The notes beneath the pieces were generated by a model. That model did not search any database. It had not been told where the DNA came from and was given only the letters and a program-made list of their open reading frames with translations. Below, in pieces: positions 33,797 through 49,318 of a DNA stretch of 56,092 nucleotides. Every line of letters begins with the position of its first letter. Within the stretch, counting starts at the first letter, position 1. This DNA comes from a virus. Position numbers and translations under genes: made by a program. Location of the stretch: IMG/VR virus record IMGVR_UViG_3300027839_000010, positions 1 to 56,092 of that record; one strand, written 5' to 3'.

Positions 33797-34582
33797 ATGA
33801 AGTATATTGCCATAATAGTTATATTTATGGTTTTATTTATGAACATACCTATACATGCTGAAATTGAGTCAAATAGTAGATATGATACATTAAAATTAAA
33901 ACATGTTACTAATCCTAATGTTTGTTTATTTGAAGTAAATCCTGAGTTGTATGATGATTGGGAGGGGTTGAGAAATATAACAATATCTGCAATAGAAGAA
34001 TGGATAATAAAATTAGAATATGCTTATCCTAATGGAGATTGGAGTGTTCCTATAGAAACAATATCTTGGGAAGATCATAAAACTGCAAGTGCATTAGATT
34101 ATCCTCAATGTAATATTATGATAAATTATGACAAGTCTTCAAATAGTAAAACATTAGGAAACACAGGTTTAAATTTTAATCAGTCTTGGCATAAATTTAT
34201 GTTCATTAATATATTTTTAGAAAGTCAAAAGAATATAACTAAAATTGTTATAGGTAGTAATATGTCTAATTCTACAATTAACATGATACAACAAAGTTAT
34301 CCTTTATCAGAAAATACAATAAAAAATATCATATTACATGAATTTGGGCATGGTTTAGGTTTAGCACATTTTAATACAAATAGGTCAATGATAGATTATA
34401 CACAATCTGTAATGACACCAACAATAAAACCATTTGATGAAAATCAGTTTTTATCTGTCACATATATAGATTTAGTCATGATTGGTAAAATATATGGAGA
34501 AAATGGATGGAATAAACCATCACCAGTATTTCATATTAAGGGATGTCATATATCAGATAGTTATATTTTTAGATGTTTTTAA
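33797..34582 (+). CDS. Secreted metzincin metalloprotease (matrixin-like)
   Basis: 261 aa. Residues 1-21 are a signal peptide (IHAE cleavage-like). HEFGHGLGLAH at 181-191 is the complete HExxHxxGxxH metzincin zinc motif, and M206 (SVMTP) fits the Met-turn. No clear cysteine-switch propeptide is visible, though C43 in the N-terminal region exists. Leaderless TATA (ATAAATAG) upstream. A secreted zinc protease encoded by an archaeal virus could cleave S-layer or surface glycoproteins for exit or entry. Followed directly by a hairpin-rich region. Confidence 0.8.
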   Translation: MKYIAIIVIFMVLFMNIPIHAEIESNSRYDTLKLKHVTNPNVCLFEVNPELYDDWEGLRNITISAIEEWIIKLEYAYPNGDWSVPIETISWEDHKTASALDYPQCNIMINYDKSSNSKTLGNTGLNFNQSWHKFMFINIFLESQKNITKIVIGSNMSNSTINMIQQSYPLSENTIKNIILHEFGHGLGLAHFNTNRSMIDYTQSVMTPTIKPFDENQFLSVTYIDLVMIGKIYGENGWNKPSPVFHIKGCHISDSYIFRCF

Positions 34583-37113: not shown

Positions 37114-38598
37114 TTATAAAGATTTTACATTCTTTGAGGAGCGAGTAGTGCGAACTCTTCTTGATGATGAAGACATAGTTCTAACTATTCGTGTATTACT
37201 TAACAAGAATTTTATATGGAATATGGCTGTTAATGTATTTGAAGCAGTTAAAACCATTTGGAATCTACCTATTGATATATCAGTAACTGCATGTCTAAGA
37301 TCAAATCTACCTGTTAAAATATCAGATATTAGGTGTCTTATTATAAACTGGTTTGTAAGAGTATTAGATAATTTTTCTCTTAGATCAAATCTGTTAGTAT
37401 CAGTTTTTGTTATTGCCTGTCTAAGATTAAATATATTTGTAAGAGTTTTAGATAACTGTGTTGCAAGACCTATTCTAATACTTAAAACATCAGTTATTGC
37501 CTGTCTTAAATCAAATCTGTTAGTTACTGTATCAGATACTGATTGTCTAATATGGAATCTAAATGTATTTGTTTTTCTTGCAAGAACTGCTACAACATCA
37601 AATAAAGATGTTAATTGAGGTATAGTTCCATTTGTTAACGTAAAGGATGTAGTTGAAAATCCAGTTGAAACGAAAGAAGGTAATCCTATAATAATTTGTC
37701 TTATATCAAACCTGGTAGTAAGAAGTCTTGTAACTATTTCTTTAAGACCTACTAATACAGTTAATGTGTCAGATACAGTTTGTCTTAATATGAATCGGTT
37801 TGTTAATGTTTTTACTGGTACTATAGTTGTTATACGGAATCTGTTAGTTAATGTTGATGTTGCTTGACCAATTAAATCAAATCTGTTTCTAAGAATGTTT
37901 GATACTGTTTGTAAAATACCTACTCTAACAGTTAATGTATCTATTATTGCACTTCTTATATCAAATAGACCACTTAATGATTCTGAAATCTGTGAAATTA
38001 AATTAAATCTACTTGTAGACGTTTCTGTAACTTTCTCTCTTATAACAAAATTAAATCTTTTAGATAAATCTGATATATTATATGAATTTGTAGTAAATGA
38101 CGTATTAATATAACTTCCTAATTTTCCAACTATAGTTCTTATATCAAATCTGTTAGTACCAGTTTTTGTTATTGCCTGTCTAAGATTAAATAAGTTTGTA
38201 ATGGTATTTGATATGGTAGTTGCAATACCTACTCTTACTGTTAATGATTTTAATATCTCTCCTACTATGGAAATATTACTTGTTAATGTACGAATAACTC
38301 CTCCTTTTAAATCAAAGCGTGAAGTAAAATGTGCATTAATATTACCAGCTCTGATAGAGAATCTGAAAGTTTTATCCGCAGTTGTTATATCAGTATTTAA
38401 GAATGTATCTGTATCAAATGAAGTAGAAGTAAATGATGTATTCTCGTGTGCTATTTGTCTAATAGAAAATCTTAATGTACCTAATCTTTCTGCAATATGT
38501 GCTCTTACATCAAATCTTTCAGTACTGGTATTTGTGACTAGTGCTCTTGTGTTAAAACTCGTGGTTGTAAATGATGTTGGTCTATATGTTCCTACCAT
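37114..38598 (-). CDS. Tail-fibre-like protein built of 14-residue repeats
   Basis: 494 aa made almost wholly of a degenerate 14-residue repeat, best seen as FDLRQAITDTLTNR: aromatic/Val, x, Leu/Ile, Arg, x2, Ile/Val, x3, Leu, Thr, x, Arg. Four longer inserts with TSF/TTSF motifs (start, ~72, ~180, ~310) interrupt it. The C-terminus is Ser/Arg/Lys-rich. Regular spacing suggests a beta-solenoid or trimeric fibrous shaft. TATA element (TTTATAC) upstream starts its own unit. Probably a fibre; not similar to anything I recognise. Confidence 0.6.
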   Translation of the reverse strand: MVGTYRPTSFTTTSFNTRALVTNTSTERFDVRAHIAERLGTLRFSIRQIAHENTSFTSTSFDTDTFLNTDITTADKTFRFSIRAGNINAHFTSRFDLKGGVIRTLTSNISIVGEILKSLTVRVGIATTISNTITNLFNLRQAITKTGTNRFDIRTIVGKLGSYINTSFTTNSYNISDLSKRFNFVIREKVTETSTSRFNLISQISESLSGLFDIRSAIIDTLTVRVGILQTVSNILRNRFDLIGQATSTLTNRFRITTIVPVKTLTNRFILRQTVSDTLTVLVGLKEIVTRLLTTRFDIRQIIIGLPSFVSTGFSTTSFTLTNGTIPQLTSLFDVVAVLARKTNTFRFHIRQSVSDTVTNRFDLRQAITDVLSIRIGLATQLSKTLTNIFNLRQAITKTDTNRFDLREKLSNTLTNQFIIRHLISDILTGRFDLRHAVTDISIGRFQMVLTASNTLTAIFHIKFLLSNTRIVRTMSSSSRRVRTTRSSKNVKSL

Positions 38599-38654: not shown

Positions 38655-39941
38655 TTATCTGACCACATCTAATCCCCTAAACAACGCCCACCATCCATCT
38701 ATCCCGTAAGGATTCTCCTCTACATATACATGGTTAAGAAATTTTAAATGGGTGTGGTTTTGTTTATAATATTCTAATAAATCTGCACCTATACCATTTT
38801 GTAATAATCCTGATTTACTTCTATATTCTTTCCAATACTCTGTATCAAGTTTCTTATTGAAAGCAAAATGTATGAATATAAAATCTCTTATTGTATCAAG
38901 ATAATTATTCACAAATATATTATATTTTTTTATTAGATTATATTGATTTTTACCATAAGTAATAATATCTATAATATCTTTAGATAATTTCAAAATTACC
39001 ATAATAGATGATGCTTCTAAAGGTTCTACAAATCCATCTGAGTTACCCAATGTTATTACGTTACCTATCCAATGTTCTTTTAACCTGCCTGATTTAAATT
39101 TAATAATTCTAGAGTTATCTATTGTGATGTCAAGTTTTGATTCTGCTTCTAACTTTGCTTCTTCATCAGTTATATGGTTTGATGAATATACATATCCACA
39201 AGCTGTTTTATCATTATGATCAATCTCCCATAACCACCCATTATTCATTGTGGTTCCTTTTGTATAAGGTCTTATAGAATTACCTAAACGTTTTTGAAAA
39301 AACAAAGCCCTGTCATTTATTAACATATTATTATATGAATACCACTCTGAATTACTGAGGATTGATTTAAACCCTGAACAATCTATGAAGTAATCTGCTT
39401 CATATTTATTATTGAGTAATTGTATTATATTGCCATCTTTTTTAATATCTGTTATTTCTTCTGAAATTATTTTAACACCTCTAATCAATAATACTTTTTC
39501 CAAGTAATCTAAGAATAAAGAATTTTCTATATGATATGCAGTTGACTCTGGATTAGGGTGTGCATTTATTTTCTCAATCATATATTTAGATAACTTACTG
39601 TTTCCATAATTACCACCCTTGAAATTAAATCCATTTGGTAGGTTACTTTTATAATCTATCACATCAAATGCATAGTCGAATGTGTAATGAAATGGTGTAT
39701 AACCAAAGTCAAGTTCTATACCATATTTTGTTATAGGTCTAACATAAAAATTAAATTCATCCATATTAATTCCACAGTGATCTCTTAATGTTTCAATAAA
39801 ACTACCTACTGTACTTTCTCCTACACCTATTGTTGATATATTAGGACTCTTAATTATTGTGATATTATAATCAGTTTTATTGCTTAACATTAATGCAGAT
39901 AAATAACCTGCTGTTCCTCCACCGACTATTATTATATTCAT
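38655..39941 (-). CDS. Flavin-dependent (tryptophan-type) halogenase
   Basis: 428 aa, ATG 39941 in an ATGA overlap with the previous gene (an upstream in-frame start would overlap 45 bp). N-terminal FAD-binding GGGTAG, the GVGESTVG motif and NGWLWEI, close to the GWxWxI signature of flavin halogenases. The catalytic Lys of this family (around residue 75-80) probably lies in RPITKYGIE. Halogenase genes are known near tail genes in marine cyanophages; the substrate is unknown. A decoration of tail proteins or host metabolites can be imagined. Confidence 0.8.
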   Translation of the reverse strand: MNIIIVGGGTAGYLSALMLSNKTDYNITIIKSPNISTIGVGESTVGSFIETLRDHCGINMDEFNFYVRPITKYGIELDFGYTPFHYTFDYAFDVIDYKSNLPNGFNFKGGNYGNSKLSKYMIEKINAHPNPESTAYHIENSLFLDYLEKVLLIRGVKIISEEITDIKKDGNIIQLLNNKYEADYFIDCSGFKSILSNSEWYSYNNMLINDRALFFQKRLGNSIRPYTKGTTMNNGWLWEIDHNDKTACGYVYSSNHITDEEAKLEAESKLDITIDNSRIIKFKSGRLKEHWIGNVITLGNSDGFVEPLEASSIMVILKLSKDIIDIITYGKNQYNLIKKYNIFVNNYLDTIRDFIFIHFAFNKKLDTEYWKEYRSKSGLLQNGIGADLLEYYKQNHTHLKFLNHVYVEENPYGIDGWWALFRGLDVVR

Positions 39942-40321
39942 ACATACTCTAAAATATCCCACTTTAATAAATCTTCGTTCCATAAATAATTTACATCAGT
40001 TCTAGGATAGTCTACTGGTGCTTCCCAATTACAAGTAGTTTCATTTAATATCCATGAATCATAAGGTTTAGGAGCAATAAAAGCATCTAATACTGAATCA
40101 TAACTGAAACCTATACCAGCAAAGTTTTTTCTTAAAGCCTTTGTTTGATCTTCACTAGGGGTATGTGTATTAGGAATATGATGAATACCTAAATGTGTAT
40201 TATATGATGTTTGTATCCAATTTTCAAGGTTTCCCCAATTACCATTATCTAATACTTCTTGATCAATAACTAAAACTCTAATCACTATATTGTTTTCATC
40301 AATTTCTGCAAAATGACTCAT
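39938..40321 (-). CDS. Marine-phage-type tail-associated protein
   Basis: 127 aa. SHFAEIDENN at the start, WIQTSYN, NFAGIGFSYD and DAFIAPKPYDSW follow the order of a small protein I know from many cyanophage and pelagiphage tail regions. Function unresolved there; thought to be a fibre or chaperone part. ATGA-coupled to the halogenase and the glycine-rich protein. Confidence 0.7.
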   Translation of the reverse strand: MSHFAEIDENNIVIRVLVIDQEVLDNGNWGNLENWIQTSYNTHLGIHHIPNTHTPSEDQTKALRKNFAGIGFSYDSVLDAFIAPKPYDSWILNETTCNWEAPVDYPRTDVNYLWNEDLLKWDILEYV

Positions 40322-41271
40322 TGGAATTTATACCTCAATATAACGATACCAGACCCACCTGCACCTGGGGGTGTTAAGGTTGAATTACCTACCTGTGTAG
40401 TTCCTCCAGTTCCACTTCCTGTGTTTGCATCTCCTGCACCTGAAGCACTACCACGATGACCAGCAGATCCTCCTCCATTTCCACCAGCACTAGCAGTTCC
40501 ATTCCAATGGCTTCCTCCACCTCCACCTCCACGCTGAAGAGAAGTACCATCGATTGAGGAAGTCATACCATGTCCACCCCTTCCAGATATTCCATTTCCA
40601 CCAATACCACCACTTACACCATGTTCTCCTGTTCCACCACCTCCACCACAACCAGTTGCACCACCATATACATGGCTTCCTCCACCATTATAACCTCCAT
40701 CATTAGATAAACCTCCAACTGAAGCAGATGAACCACCATATCCACCATTTCCTCCACCACTTCCTCCTGTTCTACCTTCATTCGTACCAGTTCCACCCAT
40801 TCCACCACCACCACCACCTTTGCATCTAATTACATCAGTAGTTGAAGCATCTTTAATATGTGAATCATTTCCATCAGTTCCCATAGTTCCATTTGTATTA
40901 TTTTGTGCAGCTCCAGCACCAATCGTTACAACGTAAGTTTGAGCTGTTAAATCAATAGCTGTTCCTTCATAATTTGTTTTGGCTCTTCCTGCTCCACCTC
41001 CACCCCCAACAGAATGTGCTCCACCTGCACCTCCAGATATAATAAGATATTCGGCTTCTCCTCCTTGTGAAACAACAAAATTACCTGTTGAATTAAAAGT
41101 ATGATATTTGTAATCTGTAGAACCAATTTGTGTTCCTGCATTTACAGCTCCTCCTGTTGCTATTAGGTATGAAGCTCCTGCACCAGAACTACTAACTACA
41201 CCAAAACCAATACCTGTATGAGGTTCTTTTAATTCTTTATATTTATTTATATGACTATCTAATTTTTCCAT
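40318..41271 (-). CDS. Glycine-rich tail protein
   Basis: 317 aa from ATG 41271 (TAATG overlap with the preceding gene). After about 70 residues of beta structure (YKYHTFNSTGNFVV), residues 75-300 are dominated by Gly runs (GGGGGAG, GGTGTNEGRTGGSGGG), then a C-terminal ILRYKF strand. Such Gly-rich domains form polyglycine II sheaths at phage fibre tips and determine host recognition. Confidence 0.7.
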   Translation of the reverse strand: MEKLDSHINKYKELKEPHTGIGFGVVSSSGAGASYLIATGGAVNAGTQIGSTDYKYHTFNSTGNFVVSQGGEAEYLIISGGAGGAHSVGGGGGAGRAKTNYEGTAIDLTAQTYVVTIGAGAAQNNTNGTMGTDGNDSHIKDASTTDVIRCKGGGGGGMGGTGTNEGRTGGSGGGNGGYGGSSASVGGLSNDGGYNGGGSHVYGGATGCGGGGGTGEHGVSGGIGGNGISGRGGHGMTSSIDGTSLQRGGGGGGSHWNGTASAGGNGGGSAGHRGSASGAGDANTGSGTGGTTQVGNSTLTPPGAGGSGIVILRYKFQ

Positions 41272-43196
41272 TATGTTAAAGCACCAATCACTTGCCATGT
41301 ATTTGTTGCAATTTTAATAGCTGTTGCAGAGTTATGTTGGGCTGTGATGATTGGAGCTGTTGCTGTTCCACCTGCACTAGCTATTGTAACACCTGATCCT
41401 TGAGCAAATGTAGTTAATCCTGCACCTATTGATATGAATGTGAGGCTACTGCCTGTTGGATATGCAACTGATGAATTTGGTGGAATTGTTAATGTTATTG
41501 CAGATCCGTTATTTAATGTTACAATTTTACCTGCATCTGCTAATACTGGAGTATAAGTTGTTCCAGTTTGTGCATTTATTGAAAATGTTAAAGTTGGATC
41601 TGGTATAGTATGACCAGAAGCCATTGTTCCTGCTGTTACCTGAGCAGCTGGTAATGCTGTACAACTACTTAATACTCCACTTGCAGGTGTTCCTAAAGCA
41701 GGTGCTACTAAAATCATTCCAGAAGCCATTGTTCCCTGAGACACCTGAGCAGCTGGTAATGCTGTACAGTTTGTTAATGCTCCTGATGCTGGTGTTCCTA
41801 AAGCAGGTGCTACTAAAATCATACCTGAAGCCATTGTTCCTTGTGCTACTTGAGCTGCTGGTAATGCAGTACAATTTGTCAATACTCCTGATGCTGGTGT
41901 TCCTAATACTGGAGCTACCATAACCATACCTGAAGCCATTGTTCCTTGTGCTACCTGAGCTGCTGGTAATGCAGTACAGTTGGTTAATGCTCCTGATGCT
42001 GGTGTTCCTAATACTGGAGTTACTAAAGTTGGACTTGATGATAATACAACATTTCCTGTTCCAGTTTTTGCTGTTACACCTGTACCACCACTTGCTACTG
42101 CTAATGTTGCAGATAGACCTGATGCATTACCTGTTAATGCTCCTGTTACATCTCCTTCTATATCTGCTACTATTACTGCTTTTGCATAACCTGTTGCAGT
42201 TTTATCTACAGTAGTTGTTGGCTCTGTTTGAAGATCTTTAAATGCTATAAATTTACCACTGTCACTTGCATCTCTGACTATTCCTGCATATTTGTCTGTA
42301 CCACCTACGTCATACAAACCATAAAATCCAACATCCACAGAATCTGCGGCATTATTTCCACTGGCTAATTTAATCAATGGATCTTCAACTGTTAATGTGG
42401 CAGTATCTACAGTTGTAGATGTTCCGTTTACTGTAAGATTTCCTGACATTGTAAGGTTTACTGCTGTTGCAGTACCTGTTAATGCAGGATCAGCTGATAA
42501 AACTGTACTTCCTGTACCTGTGCTTGATGTTACACCTGTACCTCCTTGATTAACTGCTACTGTTGTGCCTTGCCATGTACCTGATGTGATTGTACCTACA
42601 GTTGTTGCAGCTGCGGCATTAACATTTGTTGTGTCTGTTACATCTGCACTTGCTTCGATAGCGTTTAATTTAGTATGATCAGCATCTGTAAATGTGTTTG
42701 AGTCACTACCTGCTTCTACGGCAGCTACAATTTCTGCATTTGATTGGTCAGCAGTTGCACTTGCTTCTATTGCGTTTAATTTAGTATGATCTGCATCAGT
42801 GAATGTGTTTGAATCAGTACCTGCTTCCACGGCAGCTACAATCTGTGCATTAGTTTGATCTGCGGTTGCACTTGCTTCTATTGCATCTAGTTTAGTTTTG
42901 TCTGCGGCTGACATAAGTCCTGCTACAGATGAACTTGCGGCTGTTGTGCTTGCTAGTGTTATGTTTGCATCTGGTATTGTTATTACTCTTGTATTTGATG
43001 ATGTTATCCCCACCGCATCGAATCTAACTTTTTTAGAAGTATCTGCTGGGTCTACGATTAAAAGATTTTCATCTTTGATATTAATTGGATCAGTTTGTGT
43101 TTCTGCGTTAAATGTTAAAGAAATTTTATCTACGTCGTCTCCACCAAAGTGAGTGGAATCTCCTGCATCTGAATTAGTTACTTTCTTCCATACCAT
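41271..43196 (-). CDS. Repeat-rich tail fibre
   Basis: 641 aa. Residues about 90-190 contain a 37-residue repeat (KLNAIEASATADQ...), 2.3 copies; residues 390-535 contain four copies of a 35-residue repeat (GTPASG, LTNCTALPAAQV, QGTMASGM). Both repeat types are common in marine phage fibres and make trimeric shafts. The DNA repeats (41.62-42.01 kb and 42.65-42.90 kb) are recombination-prone. The N-terminus likely attaches to the tail. Confidence 0.7.
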   Translation of the reverse strand: MVWKKVTNSDAGDSTHFGGDDVDKISLTFNAETQTDPINIKDENLLIVDPADTSKKVRFDAVGITSSNTRVITIPDANITLASTTAASSSVAGLMSAADKTKLDAIEASATADQTNAQIVAAVEAGTDSNTFTDADHTKLNAIEASATADQSNAEIVAAVEAGSDSNTFTDADHTKLNAIEASADVTDTTNVNAAAATTVGTITSGTWQGTTVAVNQGGTGVTSSTGTGSTVLSADPALTGTATAVNLTMSGNLTVNGTSTTVDTATLTVEDPLIKLASGNNAADSVDVGFYGLYDVGGTDKYAGIVRDASDSGKFIAFKDLQTEPTTTVDKTATGYAKAVIVADIEGDVTGALTGNASGLSATLAVASGGTGVTAKTGTGNVVLSSSPTLVTPVLGTPASGALTNCTALPAAQVAQGTMASGMVMVAPVLGTPASGVLTNCTALPAAQVAQGTMASGMILVAPALGTPASGALTNCTALPAAQVSQGTMASGMILVAPALGTPASGVLSSCTALPAAQVTAGTMASGHTIPDPTLTFSINAQTGTTYTPVLADAGKIVTLNNGSAITLTIPPNSSVAYPTGSSLTFISIGAGLTTFAQGSGVTIASAGGTATAPIITAQHNSATAIKIATNTWQVIGALT

Positions 43197-45785: not shown

Positions 45786-46606
45786 GTTGCCTGACCTGTT
45801 ACAGTATTTGATACTCCTCCTACATGTGTAGTTCTACTTGCAACTTTTACAGAATAATATTTTTGGTATTCTAAATTAGTTAATATGTATTCTGTACCAG
45901 TGTTAGGATCAGTTGGTGTAACACCTAAGTTAGTCCATATAGCACTACCTTCTTTTTGATATGAAACTACAGATCCGCTTAATGTTCCATTTGAAATTGT
46001 TGCAGGATCCCATATAACTTTTATACTTGCTGTATTAACATCTGAACCGTTGTATGTTGCTCCAGATGTAACACCAACACCTGTTGGTGGTTCTGGTATT
46101 TTTGCTTCATAAGAAGTAATTACATTTCCAACAATAAATGATGCTTGAGCACTCCATGTTACAGGGGCACTACCTTGCATACTTAATGTAAATTTTGTAA
46201 AGAATCCTAACTTTTCCCATAAAACAGTAGATCCATTTTTTAATTGTATTCTATAATTATCTGCTACACTGTGTGGCTGGAAAGAACCTTCTCCTGGCTC
46301 GTTTGTAAAGTATCCTACCTGTTGTAATGCTGTTAATATATCTGAAGCTCCACCACTTTCCGTTACTGTTACTGGTGTTGATGTTTCATCTTTTATTATC
46401 CAGTTTAATGACATTGTTGCAGAGTTTCCTTCTATTTTTACTAATATGTTACTATCTGCCCCCTCTTCAGGTAGGGGCATTGGGGATACAGGAGCGTTTA
46501 AATCAATACTAAAACTGTTAACATTTTGTAATTTATATTCTTTTTTAACTGTAAATCCTGTGTCAGTTGAATTTGGAACTACTTTTTGTATGTAAATATC
46601 GGTCAT
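45782..46606 (-). CDS. Distal-tail-like protein with fibronectin type III domain
   Basis: 274 aa. Residues 1-175 have the size and beta content of a distal tail protein; residues 180-274 form an FN3 module (IKVIWDPA, YQKEGSAIWTNLG, YYSVKVASR). It follows the tape measure gene, as Dit does in siphophages. ATGA overlaps on both sides. Confidence 0.65.
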   Translation of the reverse strand: MTDIYIQKVVPNSTDTGFTVKKEYKLQNVNSFSIDLNAPVSPMPLPEEGADSNILVKIEGNSATMSLNWIIKDETSTPVTVTESGGASDILTALQQVGYFTNEPGEGSFQPHSVADNYRIQLKNGSTVLWEKLGFFTKFTLSMQGSAPVTWSAQASFIVGNVITSYEAKIPEPPTGVGVTSGATYNGSDVNTASIKVIWDPATISNGTLSGSVVSYQKEGSAIWTNLGVTPTDPNTGTEYILTNLEYQKYYSVKVASRTTHVGGVSNTVTGQAT

Positions 46607-47805
46607 AGTCTACCTCTCCTACTGTTTGCATTTTCTAATATATCCATTACTCTTGTTTCAAAGTTTCTCATATCTCCCTCACTTGATATGTTACCAACAC
46701 TTATGTTTAAAGTTACTCCGCTACCAGCACTCTCTCCGTTTGGTATTACTGTTTCTGATCCTTTTTCTCCAAATGAATACATTTGACCTGATCTACCAAT
46801 ACCCATTATAGGTTCATTTATTTGACCACCATTAGCAAATCCAAATGTACTTCCTATTGCACCAGCGGCAGCTTGTAATCCATTCCATATCCAATCTTTA
46901 ATCCATTGCCAAAGATCACTCCATGAAGTTGTTATACTATTTAGTCCGTTCCAGAACCAGTCTCCAACCCATGTAAATAACTGTAACCAAGATGCAGTAA
47001 TACCATTTATTCCGTTCCAGAACCAGTCTCCAACCCATGTAAAGAATTTATAAAATTGATCTTGTATACCATTCAATCCATTATTAAACCATGTACCTAT
47101 TGCGGCTCGAATATTTTTTCCTACTTGATCCCATGAAGCATTTATAGAACTCCAATCCATTAACTTAAATGCATCTCTAAACATAACTCCAATATGATAA
47201 CCTGGATTCCAGTCTGTAAATATTAAAATTATTCCAGCAATAAGATCCTTTCCTAGTTGAGCCCAATCCATTTTTTCTGAAAGTAAAAAGTTTATTCCAT
47301 CTGAAGCCCACTTACCTAAACTATTTAATCCATCTGCTATTGCTTGTGATGGGTTTGCAATAAATGATTCTAAATCAGCTGCAATTCTACCTCCAAAGAA
47401 AGCTCCTACACTTTGCATTATTGGCATTGCATATGTGTACCAAGGGATAATAAAGTTACGTAAAAGTAATACTATTATAGGTCTTAACATAAATCCAATG
47501 AAATCTCCTATAGGTCTAAATATCATCATTATACCGAAATTCATTAACTTAAACATTTGTTTTAACATTGGAGATGAACCTGCTATTGCTTTAATTGATC
47601 CCATTATTGCAGTTATTGCTAATCCTATTAGACTTAATTTTAACATTCCCTTCAATCCTATTTTTTTTAAATCTCCTAATCCTGCTAATGAACCTCCTCC
47701 TCCACCTTTTCCACCTTTATTTCCACCCATAGCTTTTGCTAATGCGGCTATAGATCCACTACTTAATTTTACCTCAATAATATCATCATCCATTACAGAA
47801 GACAT
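46603..47805 (-). CDS. Tape measure protein (short)
   Basis: 400 aa. Hydrophobic segments around residues 50-135, then a Trp/Gly/Asn-rich section (about 225-320) with three repeats of the FTWVGDWFWNGLN kind, and a C-terminal beta region. Position after the frameshifted chaperone is diagnostic. At roughly 1.5 angstrom per residue it would imply a tail of about 60 nm, short for a siphovirus. TAATG junction to the chaperone extension. Confidence 0.75.
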   Translation of the reverse strand: MSSVMDDDIIEVKLSSGSIAALAKAMGGNKGGKGGGGGSLAGLGDLKKIGLKGMLKLSLIGLAITAIMGSIKAIAGSSPMLKQMFKLMNFGIMMIFRPIGDFIGFMLRPIIVLLLRNFIIPWYTYAMPIMQSVGAFFGGRIAADLESFIANPSQAIADGLNSLGKWASDGINFLLSEKMDWAQLGKDLIAGIILIFTDWNPGYHIGVMFRDAFKLMDWSSINASWDQVGKNIRAAIGTWFNNGLNGIQDQFYKFFTWVGDWFWNGINGITASWLQLFTWVGDWFWNGLNSITTSWSDLWQWIKDWIWNGLQAAAGAIGSTFGFANGGQINEPIMGIGRSGQMYSFGEKGSETVIPNGESAGSGVTLNISVGNISSEGDMRNFETRVMDILENANSRRGRL

Positions 47806-48289
47806 TATTTACCTCCAAATATGTTCTTTAATGACTCTTCGATCATATCTTTTGATATATGTATTGTGTCTTTTAAATATTGCGTAGGCTGTCTATCTGT
47901 TTGTGCTTTATCCCAACCAAATACTAAGGCACAATACGCGTAGATGGATCCAGAGACTCTATCGTACTCTGACCTGTTGCCGCTATTATCATCGGTGCTA
48001 CTAATCTCTCTAAAGGGAGTGCTTGCATTAATCTATTTAAGATCCCTAATGCACTATTTGTTGGTAATTTGGCAAACTCTGTAGCGTTCTTATGATTGAA
48101 TGGTGCTTTTGTAATTACTGTTTGCAAAATCATTTGTTGATATAATTGTAAGTTTATTTTAGGACTTTGAATATCAGATAAATCAATACAACTTTTTAAT
48201 ATTTGTTGCATTTCTCCAAATGGAGGATCATCATCAAATTCTATAGTTTCATCCTTGTCATTTATTTTAACAGTAAATGATTGAATCAT
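47805..48289 (-). CDS. Tail assembly chaperone, -1 frameshift fusion (gpGT-like)
   Basis: The 0-frame gene (47924-48289) carries the slippery heptamer C-CCT-TTA. A -1 shift there joins residues 1-93 to 68 residues of the overlapping frame (ending at 47805), giving 161 aa that include YAYCALVFGWDKAQ. The -1 frame is open over its full length and stops in a TAATG junction with the tape measure. This is the gpG/gpGT arrangement of lambda-like tails, which sets the ratio of two chaperone forms around the tape measure. Confidence 0.75.
47924..48289 (-). CDS. Tail assembly chaperone, 0-frame form (gpG-like)
   Basis: 121 aa, acidic N-terminus and a helical middle (EMQQILKSC, IVLQ-type helices), ending 87 bp after the slippery site. 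Located between tail tube and tape measure, where siphophages keep the chaperone. It is the short product; the long one is the frameshift fusion. Confidence 0.75.
   Translation of the reverse strand: MIQSFTVKINDKDETIEFDDDPPFGEMQQILKSCIDLSDIQSPKINLQLYQQMILQTVITKAPFNHKNATEFAKLPTNSALGILNRLMQALPLERLVAPMIIAATGQSTIESLDPSTRIVP
48011..48017 (-). promoter_or_regulatory. -1 ribosomal frameshift slippery site CCCTTTA
   Basis: X-XXY-YYZ heptamer in the correct register: the first C is the third base of codon 91 of the gene starting at 48289, followed by CCT and TTA. Slippage to CCC-TTT retains pairing. No stop interrupts the -1 frame for 68 codons. Confidence 0.7.
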
Positions 48290-48325: not shown

Positions 48326-49318
48326 TTAAGGTACTGTTGCAACACTATTGCTTGCTGTAACCTTAACATTTCTCATTTGGAATGTCAAATCTTCAAATAC
48401 TGGTTCATTTGGAACTATTGATAAACTATGTTCTGATAGACCAACACCTGCAAATTCCACTAATATTGTTTTTTCACTTGTTCCTGTAAGACCATTAGTA
48501 AATACAATAGTTAATGTTGCTAACTCAGTTCTATCAAATACTCTTTGTAATTGTGTTTTATCAATAAATGATGCATTAAATTTACCAGTCATTTCAAATA
48601 ATTTTCTGAATCCACCTACTGCATTTGCACTTCCTTGTTCATACAATAATTCAGTATTAGATGTAAATGAAATGTCAAAGTCTTGAACTTCTGCAATTAG
48701 ATTTGCGGATCTATTTGGATGATTGGTTGTACTGTTTGGAATCTGCAATAATGCATGAGAGAATGTATATGGGAAATCAACACCGTCTGCTATTGGAGAT
48801 CCTATACTGGTTGTAATAGTGTCAGTTATTCCATAAATGAAATCTAATGCACCAGTAACTGTTTCTCCTATTGATGATTTAATGTTTAATGAAGAGAATA
48901 AAGTTCCTTTCAAATGTCTAACAACATCAGTAGATGTTTTTGTATCAAATCCTACTTCTATATCAAAAGATTTTGGGGATGCTATTCCTGTATTGTCTGC
49001 TGTTAAGTTTCCGCTACCAGAATCCCATATATGATTAAAATCACTACTTGATCCAGATGTATCAACTCCACCTAGAATTGCATCAAATACCCAGGGGGAT
49101 GATAAAACAAAGTCTACTGATCCGCTTCCTTCATTCTTTCCATATGCATATGATGCTACTTCTATGTTATTTAGTTGTGTTAATGCTATTTGATTGTTCT
49201 TAAATGATAATGAGTTTATTGCTTGTTGTAATCCAAATGGTCTTGTTGCTGTAGCTCCCCCACCAAAAGATGACTCTTCGCCATATTTTAAAGTACCATG
49301 AGCACCTGTTCGAACCAT
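48326..49318 (-). CDS. Major tail tube protein
   Basis: 330 aa, beta-rich, Ser/Thr-rich, GSVDFVLSSPWVFDAILGG near residue 60-80 and a C-terminal beta domain with VEFAGVGLSEHSL. Size and position (between tail terminator and chaperone) fit the tail tube, perhaps with an extra Ig-like domain. Leaderless promoter likely (CTTATAAATA upstream). Confidence 0.7.
   Translation of the reverse strand: MVRTGAHGTLKYGEESSFGGGATATRPFGLQQAINSLSFKNNQIALTQLNNIEVASYAYGKNEGSGSVDFVLSSPWVFDAILGGVDTSGSSSDFNHIWDSGSGNLTADNTGIASPKSFDIEVGFDTKTSTDVVRHLKGTLFSSLNIKSSIGETVTGALDFIYGITDTITTSIGSPIADGVDFPYTFSHALLQIPNSTTNHPNRSANLIAEVQDFDISFTSNTELLYEQGSANAVGGFRKLFEMTGKFNASFIDKTQLQRVFDRTELATLTIVFTNGLTGTSEKTILVEFAGVGLSEHSLSIVPNEPVFEDLTFQMRNVKVTASNSVATVP

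Follow-up and report, generated by a model that had tools for sequence, protein, structure and literature searches.

A predicted -1 frameshift at an invariant CCCTTTA heptamer in the tail assembly chaperone genes of marine archaeal tailed viruses

The window (the whole stretch of DNA analysed, a single virus record of 56,092 bases, IMGVR_UViG_3300027839_000010) contains a short gene, G, between the genes for the tail tube and tape measure proteins, and a second open frame, T, that overlaps the end of G in the -1 frame. This locus raises two questions: whether G and T are joined into one protein by programmed slippage of the ribosome at a CCCTTTA heptamer in the overlap, and which elements of the mRNA could stimulate such a shift. 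The features of the locus are the following.

48326-49318, minus strand: tail tube protein, directly upstream of G (PF18906, E 7.9e-17)
47924-48289, minus strand: G open reading frame, frame 0, tail assembly chaperone, 121 aa (ORF call; predicted fold; homologues in 74 haplotypes)
48011-48070, minus strand: 20 codons ending with the heptamer, with synonymous change suppressed in the window clade (comparison with L007)
48011-48017, minus strand: predicted slippery heptamer C_CCT_TTA (X-XXY-YYZ), codons 91-93 (sequence; invariant and in register in 74 of 74 haplotypes)
47805-48011, minus strand: T extension, -1 frame, 68 codons plus TAA (sequence; T domain conserved in relatives)
47811-47816, minus strand: ribosome-binding site (GGAGGT) for the tape-measure gene, within the last part of T (sequence)
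46603-47805, minus strand: tape measure protein, 400 aa, its start codon overlapping the T stop in TAATG (phrog_305, E 1.2e-5)

G starts with the ATG at 48289, ends with the stop at 47924 and encodes 121 aa. The heptamer runs from 48017 to 48011 and begins with the last base of codon 91 (CTC); CCT and TTA, codons 92 and 93, supply the other six bases. In the -1 frame there is no stop from 48032 onward, through 68 codons past the heptamer, until a TAA at 47807-47805 that shares bases with the tape-measure ATG in a TAATG junction (47807-47803); the predicted G-T fusion product comprises 161 aa. The register of the heptamer, the length of the open -1 frame, the junction and the size of the fusion had all been given in the initial annotation, and each of them proved exact on the sequence.

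The heptamer alone means little: the minus strand of the window has three copies of CCCTTTA (the plus strand none). We therefore counted all in-register heptamers of the form X-XXY-YYZ with X different from Y, and found 60 in the 80 window ORFs (47,238 coding nt). The -1 frame following these 60 sites has a median of 5 open codons; only the G/T heptamer is followed by 68, and the runner-up by 48. The overlap of G and T at CCCTTTA is therefore not due to chance.

Further genes in the window encode a capsid protein, a prohead protease, a terminase, an MCM helicase and a Rad51/RadA-type recombinase. Over 99% of its length as query, the capsid protein shares 25-26% identity with its counterparts in HVTV-1, HCTV-1 and HCTV-5; the terminase matches HGTV-1 best, and the matches of RadA and MCM in the phage collection are archaeal viruses. 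The tape measure protein corresponds in position and approximate size to that of HVTV-1, in which the chaperone is annotated ahead of the tape measure as a CDS joined from two pieces. Druskavirus capsids have been placed among marine archaeal viruses by Liu et al. (PMC8651126). The assignment to an archaeal virus, already proposed from the initial reading of the sequence, is therefore well supported by the capsid, the terminase, RadA and MCM, the synteny with HVTV-1 and the placement by Liu et al.; the capsid, the replication genes and the gene order fit a Druskaviridae-like marine archaeal tailed virus. A pattern scan of 84,980 genomes for the host yielded no provirus and no RadA relative, an AmoC search gave no signal (the controls were equally silent), and no tRNA genes were found in the window.

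The proposed identity of G and T as a tail assembly chaperone pair stands on their position between the tail tube and tape measure genes, on the synteny with HVTV-1 and on predicted folds. The model of G (pLDDT 84.5) consists of a beta hairpin followed by helices. Its leading Foldseek match is a tail assembly chaperone of a Bacillus phage (E 4.9e-4, probability 1.00), and other matches include an uncultured archaeal virus protein and several chaperones, two of them haloviral (from Haloarcula hispanica tailed virus 2 and from ChaoS9). For the top match the TM score is 0.50, against a longer target, and a fold search of the PDB with G matched no solved structure; the modelled resemblance of G to known tail assembly chaperones is thus moderate. 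The T model (pLDDT 81.6) contains three helices, and it matches a protein of an uncultured archaeal virus best, though weakly. Conservation of the T domain extends to every relative that reaches it, with invariant Y24, A28 and W33 and an FGWDK motif. Weak matches to phrog_9001 (tail assembly chaperone) were obtained for 7 of 33 T members, with a best E of 0.0036. A Pfam search with G and T returned no chaperone family match, and profile comparison with the HVTV-1 chaperone detected no sequence homology. Since tail assembly chaperones are poorly conserved in sequence, a match to a curated sequence family was not taken as defining. The synteny and the fold matches support the classification of G and T as a gpG/gpGT-type pair.

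To compare the locus among relatives, we used the following scans: (i) a scan with the chaperone only, which returned four distinct relatives at 76-100% identity, (ii) a scan with the capsid protein, which returned 80 loci, (iii) profile searches with the G and T halves, which gave 33 distinct haplotypes carrying both halves, and (iv) an additional scan with the G alignment, which extended the set to 74 distinct haplotypes. In all four close relatives CCCTTTA is in register and the -1 extension is conserved. Among the 33 haplotypes, none departs from the -1 frame for T or from the register of CCCTTTA (33/33 for each), and the identity of the fusion to that of the window falls to 28%. The full set of 74 haplotypes from the same virus group shows both features without exception. 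Three further loci (L039, L075 and L133) have G without T; their contigs stop at the end of the G stretch, and they are no counter-examples. The G/T pair is present at every capsid-bearing locus that extends more than 4 kb downstream.

The conservation of the heptamer extends to silent positions. In the codon alignment of the 33 haplotypes, pairs that share the residue at any of the three heptamer codons always share the codon as well (100%; 243/243, 528/528 and 528/528), whereas 31-55% identity is expected from codon usage, and this conservation has a sharp upstream (5') edge. The codon preceding CCT is NNC in 74 of 74 haplotypes, whichever residue it specifies (Tyr, Phe, His, Leu or Ile); about 17 are predicted from usage. 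Third-position changes between close relatives track frame 0 upstream of the heptamer and the -1 frame downstream of it, a pattern from which we conclude that both frames are under purifying selection. The frame-0 stops vary in position, from 55 to 157 nt past the heptamer, and the T frame and the heptamer stay fixed. Between the window and L007, the 20 codons ending at the heptamer show no differences, whereas the 73 codons before them differ at 22 third positions.

These data bear on three explanations that dispense with slippage at this site. A -1 discontinuity in a single contig may be an indel error, or the mark of a decayed gene. The same architecture recurs in 74 distinct haplotypes from many metagenomes, and the architecture is considered real because it is identical in all of these independent haplotypes; assembly error is excluded by the comparative data. 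Purifying selection in both frames, together with the varying frame-0 stops, speaks against a pseudogene as well, and we assign practically no weight to this whole explanation. The second explanation places the shift elsewhere in the overlap and attributes the retention of CCCTTTA to the Pro-Leu dipeptide, which is indeed invariant in G. Selection on the dipeptide would permit four Pro and six Leu codons, but no synonymous codon was seen in 528 pairs; the preceding codon ends in C for Tyr, Phe, His, Leu and Ile alike, and other heptamers occur in few sequences only. We regard this explanation as highly improbable.

The third explanation does without a frameshift and makes T an independent gene, whose translation would begin at a start codon of T or by re-initiation once ribosomes have terminated at the G stop. 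The T frame does overlap G and run to the next gene, and TTG, GTG or ATG is present at +24 in the T frame in 15 of 33 haplotypes. However, nearly all of these start-like codons lack a Shine-Dalgarno (SD) sequence; the window clade and 18 of the 33 haplotypes have no start codon (ATG, GTG or TTG in the -1 frame) before the conserved T domain. The G stop sits inside T-coding sequence, 55-157 nt past the heptamer, and a separate T gene leaves the invariant in-register CCCTTTA unexplained. Independent initiation of T thus appears very unlikely, if slightly less so than the other two explanations. The initial annotation had named two observations that would speak against a programmed shift, namely relatives devoid of both the heptamer and the open -1 frame, and an extension encoded as a gene with its own start; the relatives retain both in 74 of 74 cases, and T has no start in the window clade. 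The comparison of related genomes for a kept slippery site and synonymous constraint, which it had called for, thus supports its central claim of a programmed -1 frameshift.

We infer the following mechanism for slippage, slip rate and chaperone roles in a presumed archaeal host, and on the comparative data we are strongly confident of its outline: G and T encode a gpG/gpGT-type chaperone pair, -1 slippage at CCCTTTA yields the 161-aa fusion, and the slip rate sets the G:GT ratio. Most ribosomes would read G through to its own stop. In a minority, the Pro-tRNA on CCU and the Leu-tRNA on UUA would slip back by one base onto CCC and UUU, and these ribosomes would go on in the -1 frame to produce the G-T fusion. 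By analogy with lambda, G may coat the tape measure and the T part may recruit tail-tube subunits; with the roles so divided, the slip rate would therefore set the G:GT ratio required in tail assembly. In 57 of the 74 relatives, the window not among them, an internal SD-like element is predicted to pair with the 16S anti-SD and would probably raise the slip rate.

The SD-like element was detected with an assumed archaeal anti-SD, AUCACCUCCU, from which the 3' end of the host 16S rRNA may differ. With this sequence, the GGAGGT ribosome-binding site of the tape-measure gene (47811-47816) has a duplex energy of -10.7 kcal/mol. The duplex-energy profile of G has a sharp peak 7-13 nt ahead of the heptamer. 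In 57 of 74 haplotypes (L162, L174, L184 and L186 among them) the heptamer is preceded by an element with an energy of -8.5 kcal/mol or lower, with a best gap to CCCTTTA of 7-10 nt; the background is 1.35% of equal-length spans elsewhere in G. The element takes the forms GGAGGTGAT, AAGGAGGT, AGGAGTGAT and GGGGGT, and its extreme is the perfect GGAGGTGAT carried by site L162. Within the element, Glu is encoded by GAG in 35 of 35 cases (22% elsewhere) and Lys by AAG in 22 of 23 (27% usage), and the encoded residue switches between Glu and Gly with the purines retained. Judged by these codon choices, the element is selected at the nucleotide level. Four changes suffice to explain its distribution on the protein tree.

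The same element is relevant to a further explanation, in which the frame is changed by the polymerase rather than by the ribosome. Transcriptional slippage would deliver the same two products from one gene. Polymerase slippage requires long homopolymer runs, however, and CCCTTTA offers only two runs of three; the conservation of the site respects the reading-frame register, and the constant distance of an SD-like element from the site implicates the ribosome. The chance that transcription accounts for the frame change seems to us minute. In the case of ribosomal slippage, the SD-like element is a candidate stimulator of archaeal -1 frameshifting and probably raises the slip rate.

At the right distance, the SD-like element is absent from the window clade (4 haplotypes) and from a clade of 10 haplotypes. 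The nearest candidate in the window, AGGGATC, lies 23 nt away and scores no better than synonymous shuffles, and it was rejected as an internal SD. An upstream SD stimulator is found 9-14 nt before bacterial -1 sites (PMC5009743); the window clade departs from this rule, but an SD is not obligatory for this class of -1 site. A broader reading of these data is that the 16S anti-SD of archaeal ribosomes samples the mRNA during elongation, as in bacteria, and that a selected internal SD (GGAGGTGAT at its fullest), 7-10 nt before the invariant C_CCU_UUA, drives the -1 shift in a large group of marine archaeal viruses, with two clades, including that of the window, doing without it. We lean towards this reading by a small degree. 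If true, it would be the first comparative evidence, within the literature searched, that an SD stimulates a -1 frameshift in Archaea.

RNA structure was considered as another stimulator. A search for downstream stem-loops, confined to pseudoknot-free folds, gave z-scores near zero and no covariation, and no such stimulator is claimed. Small inverted repeats flank the SD-like element, about 6-30 nt upstream of the heptamer, in four haplotypes (L063, L162, L036 and L044), and their stem sequences differ between clades. Examples of such upstream hairpins with the SD in the loop are UCAUG-AAGGAGGU-CAUGA (L063) and AUUCUAG..CUAGAAU (L036). The upstream hairpin is attractive on visual inspection but is not claimed as a stimulator either: its median p was 0.30 when codons were shuffled synonymously and 0.14 with dinucleotide shuffles. 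Within the window clade, silent sites at 48018-48070 (minus strand of the window) are conserved well upstream of the heptamer, with neither a correctly spaced SD nor a significant hairpin in this segment.

Comparison with known systems revealed both shared and distinct features. Conservation of a tail-gene frameshift in bacterial phages was described by Xu, Hendrix and Duda (2004), as cited in PMC7911831. The lambda gpG/gpGT genes resemble the window pair in their location before the tape measure gene, in the short G and the longer -1 GT fusion, and in an extension that ends near the tape-measure start. Unlike lambda, the window represents an archaeal-type virus with a pyrimidine heptamer and no detectable sequence similarity, and its pair is known here from sequence. 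Closer in organization are the Druskaviridae HVTV-1, HCTV-5 and HCTV-1, which share with the window the order capsid, connectors, tail tube, chaperone pair and tape measure; their G and -1 extension are annotated as a joined CDS, for which a -1 frameshift has been proposed (PMC5009743). These viruses have hypersaline hosts and GC-rich genomes, their heptamers are GGGAAAG or GGGAAAC in contrast to CCCTTTA in the window group, and their G and T are not recognisably homologous to those of the window. A GGAGG also stands 10 nt upstream of GGGAAAG in HVTV-1 and HCTV-5 (L106 and L190), but SD-like 10-mers are frequent in these GC-rich genes (6.5%). The chaperone pair of Hardycor1, an archaeal tailed virus like that of the window, has the heptamer G GGA AAT, and its frameshift was predicted from two sequences only (PMC7911831). 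For the HF1 group and HSTV-2, a +1 shift has been suggested (PMC7230728, PMC5009743).

Outside the archaeal viruses, three systems are informative. In Saccharolobus solfataricus fucA1, archaeal -1 slippage was shown experimentally, at about 10% in vitro; this is a cellular enzyme gene, unlike the window locus, and its A-AAA-AAT site is accompanied by rare codons and a stem-loop (PMC8211752). A 2021 review lists one experimentally proven archaeal -1 frameshift and a few predicted in haloviruses (PMC8211752). The window heptamer itself, as CCCUUUA, was first proposed for a -1 shift in Giardiavirus, a eukaryotic dsRNA virus for which the -1 mechanism is disputed (PMC8230311). E. coli dnaX has an internal SD 9-14 nt before its -1 site (PMC5009743), about the distance of the SD-like elements in the relatives; it differs from the window, which has no such SD, in its bacterial ribosome and an added 3' stem-loop.

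Predicted -1 frameshifts in archaeal-virus chaperones are thus already known from HVTV-1, HCTV-1/2/5 and Hardycor1. For the fixed pyrimidine heptamer and the split into SD-plus and SD-minus versions, we found no earlier report in the literature searched, though one may exist elsewhere. At a single fixed heptamer, an entire group of marine archaeal viruses displays a near-textbook comparative signature, and the natural SD-plus and SD-minus versions are ready test constructs for slipping by archaeal ribosomes and for the action of the anti-SD in elongation. The T half would escape automated gene calling, and the fusion deserves annotation in these genomes.

Several other genes of the window were noted by eye. 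The ORF at 38655-39983 (minus strand) begins with IIVGGGTAGYLSALML and resembles FAD-dependent tryptophan halogenases, an unusual virus cargo. The ORF at 33797-34582 (plus strand) has a zinc-metalloprotease-like HEFGHGLGLAH motif and an apparent signal peptide. Internal repeats (LGTPASGALTNCTALPAAQV; T.RFDIRQ) were seen in the ORFs at 41271-43196 and 37114-38598 (both minus strand), which probably encode tail fibre or appendage proteins.
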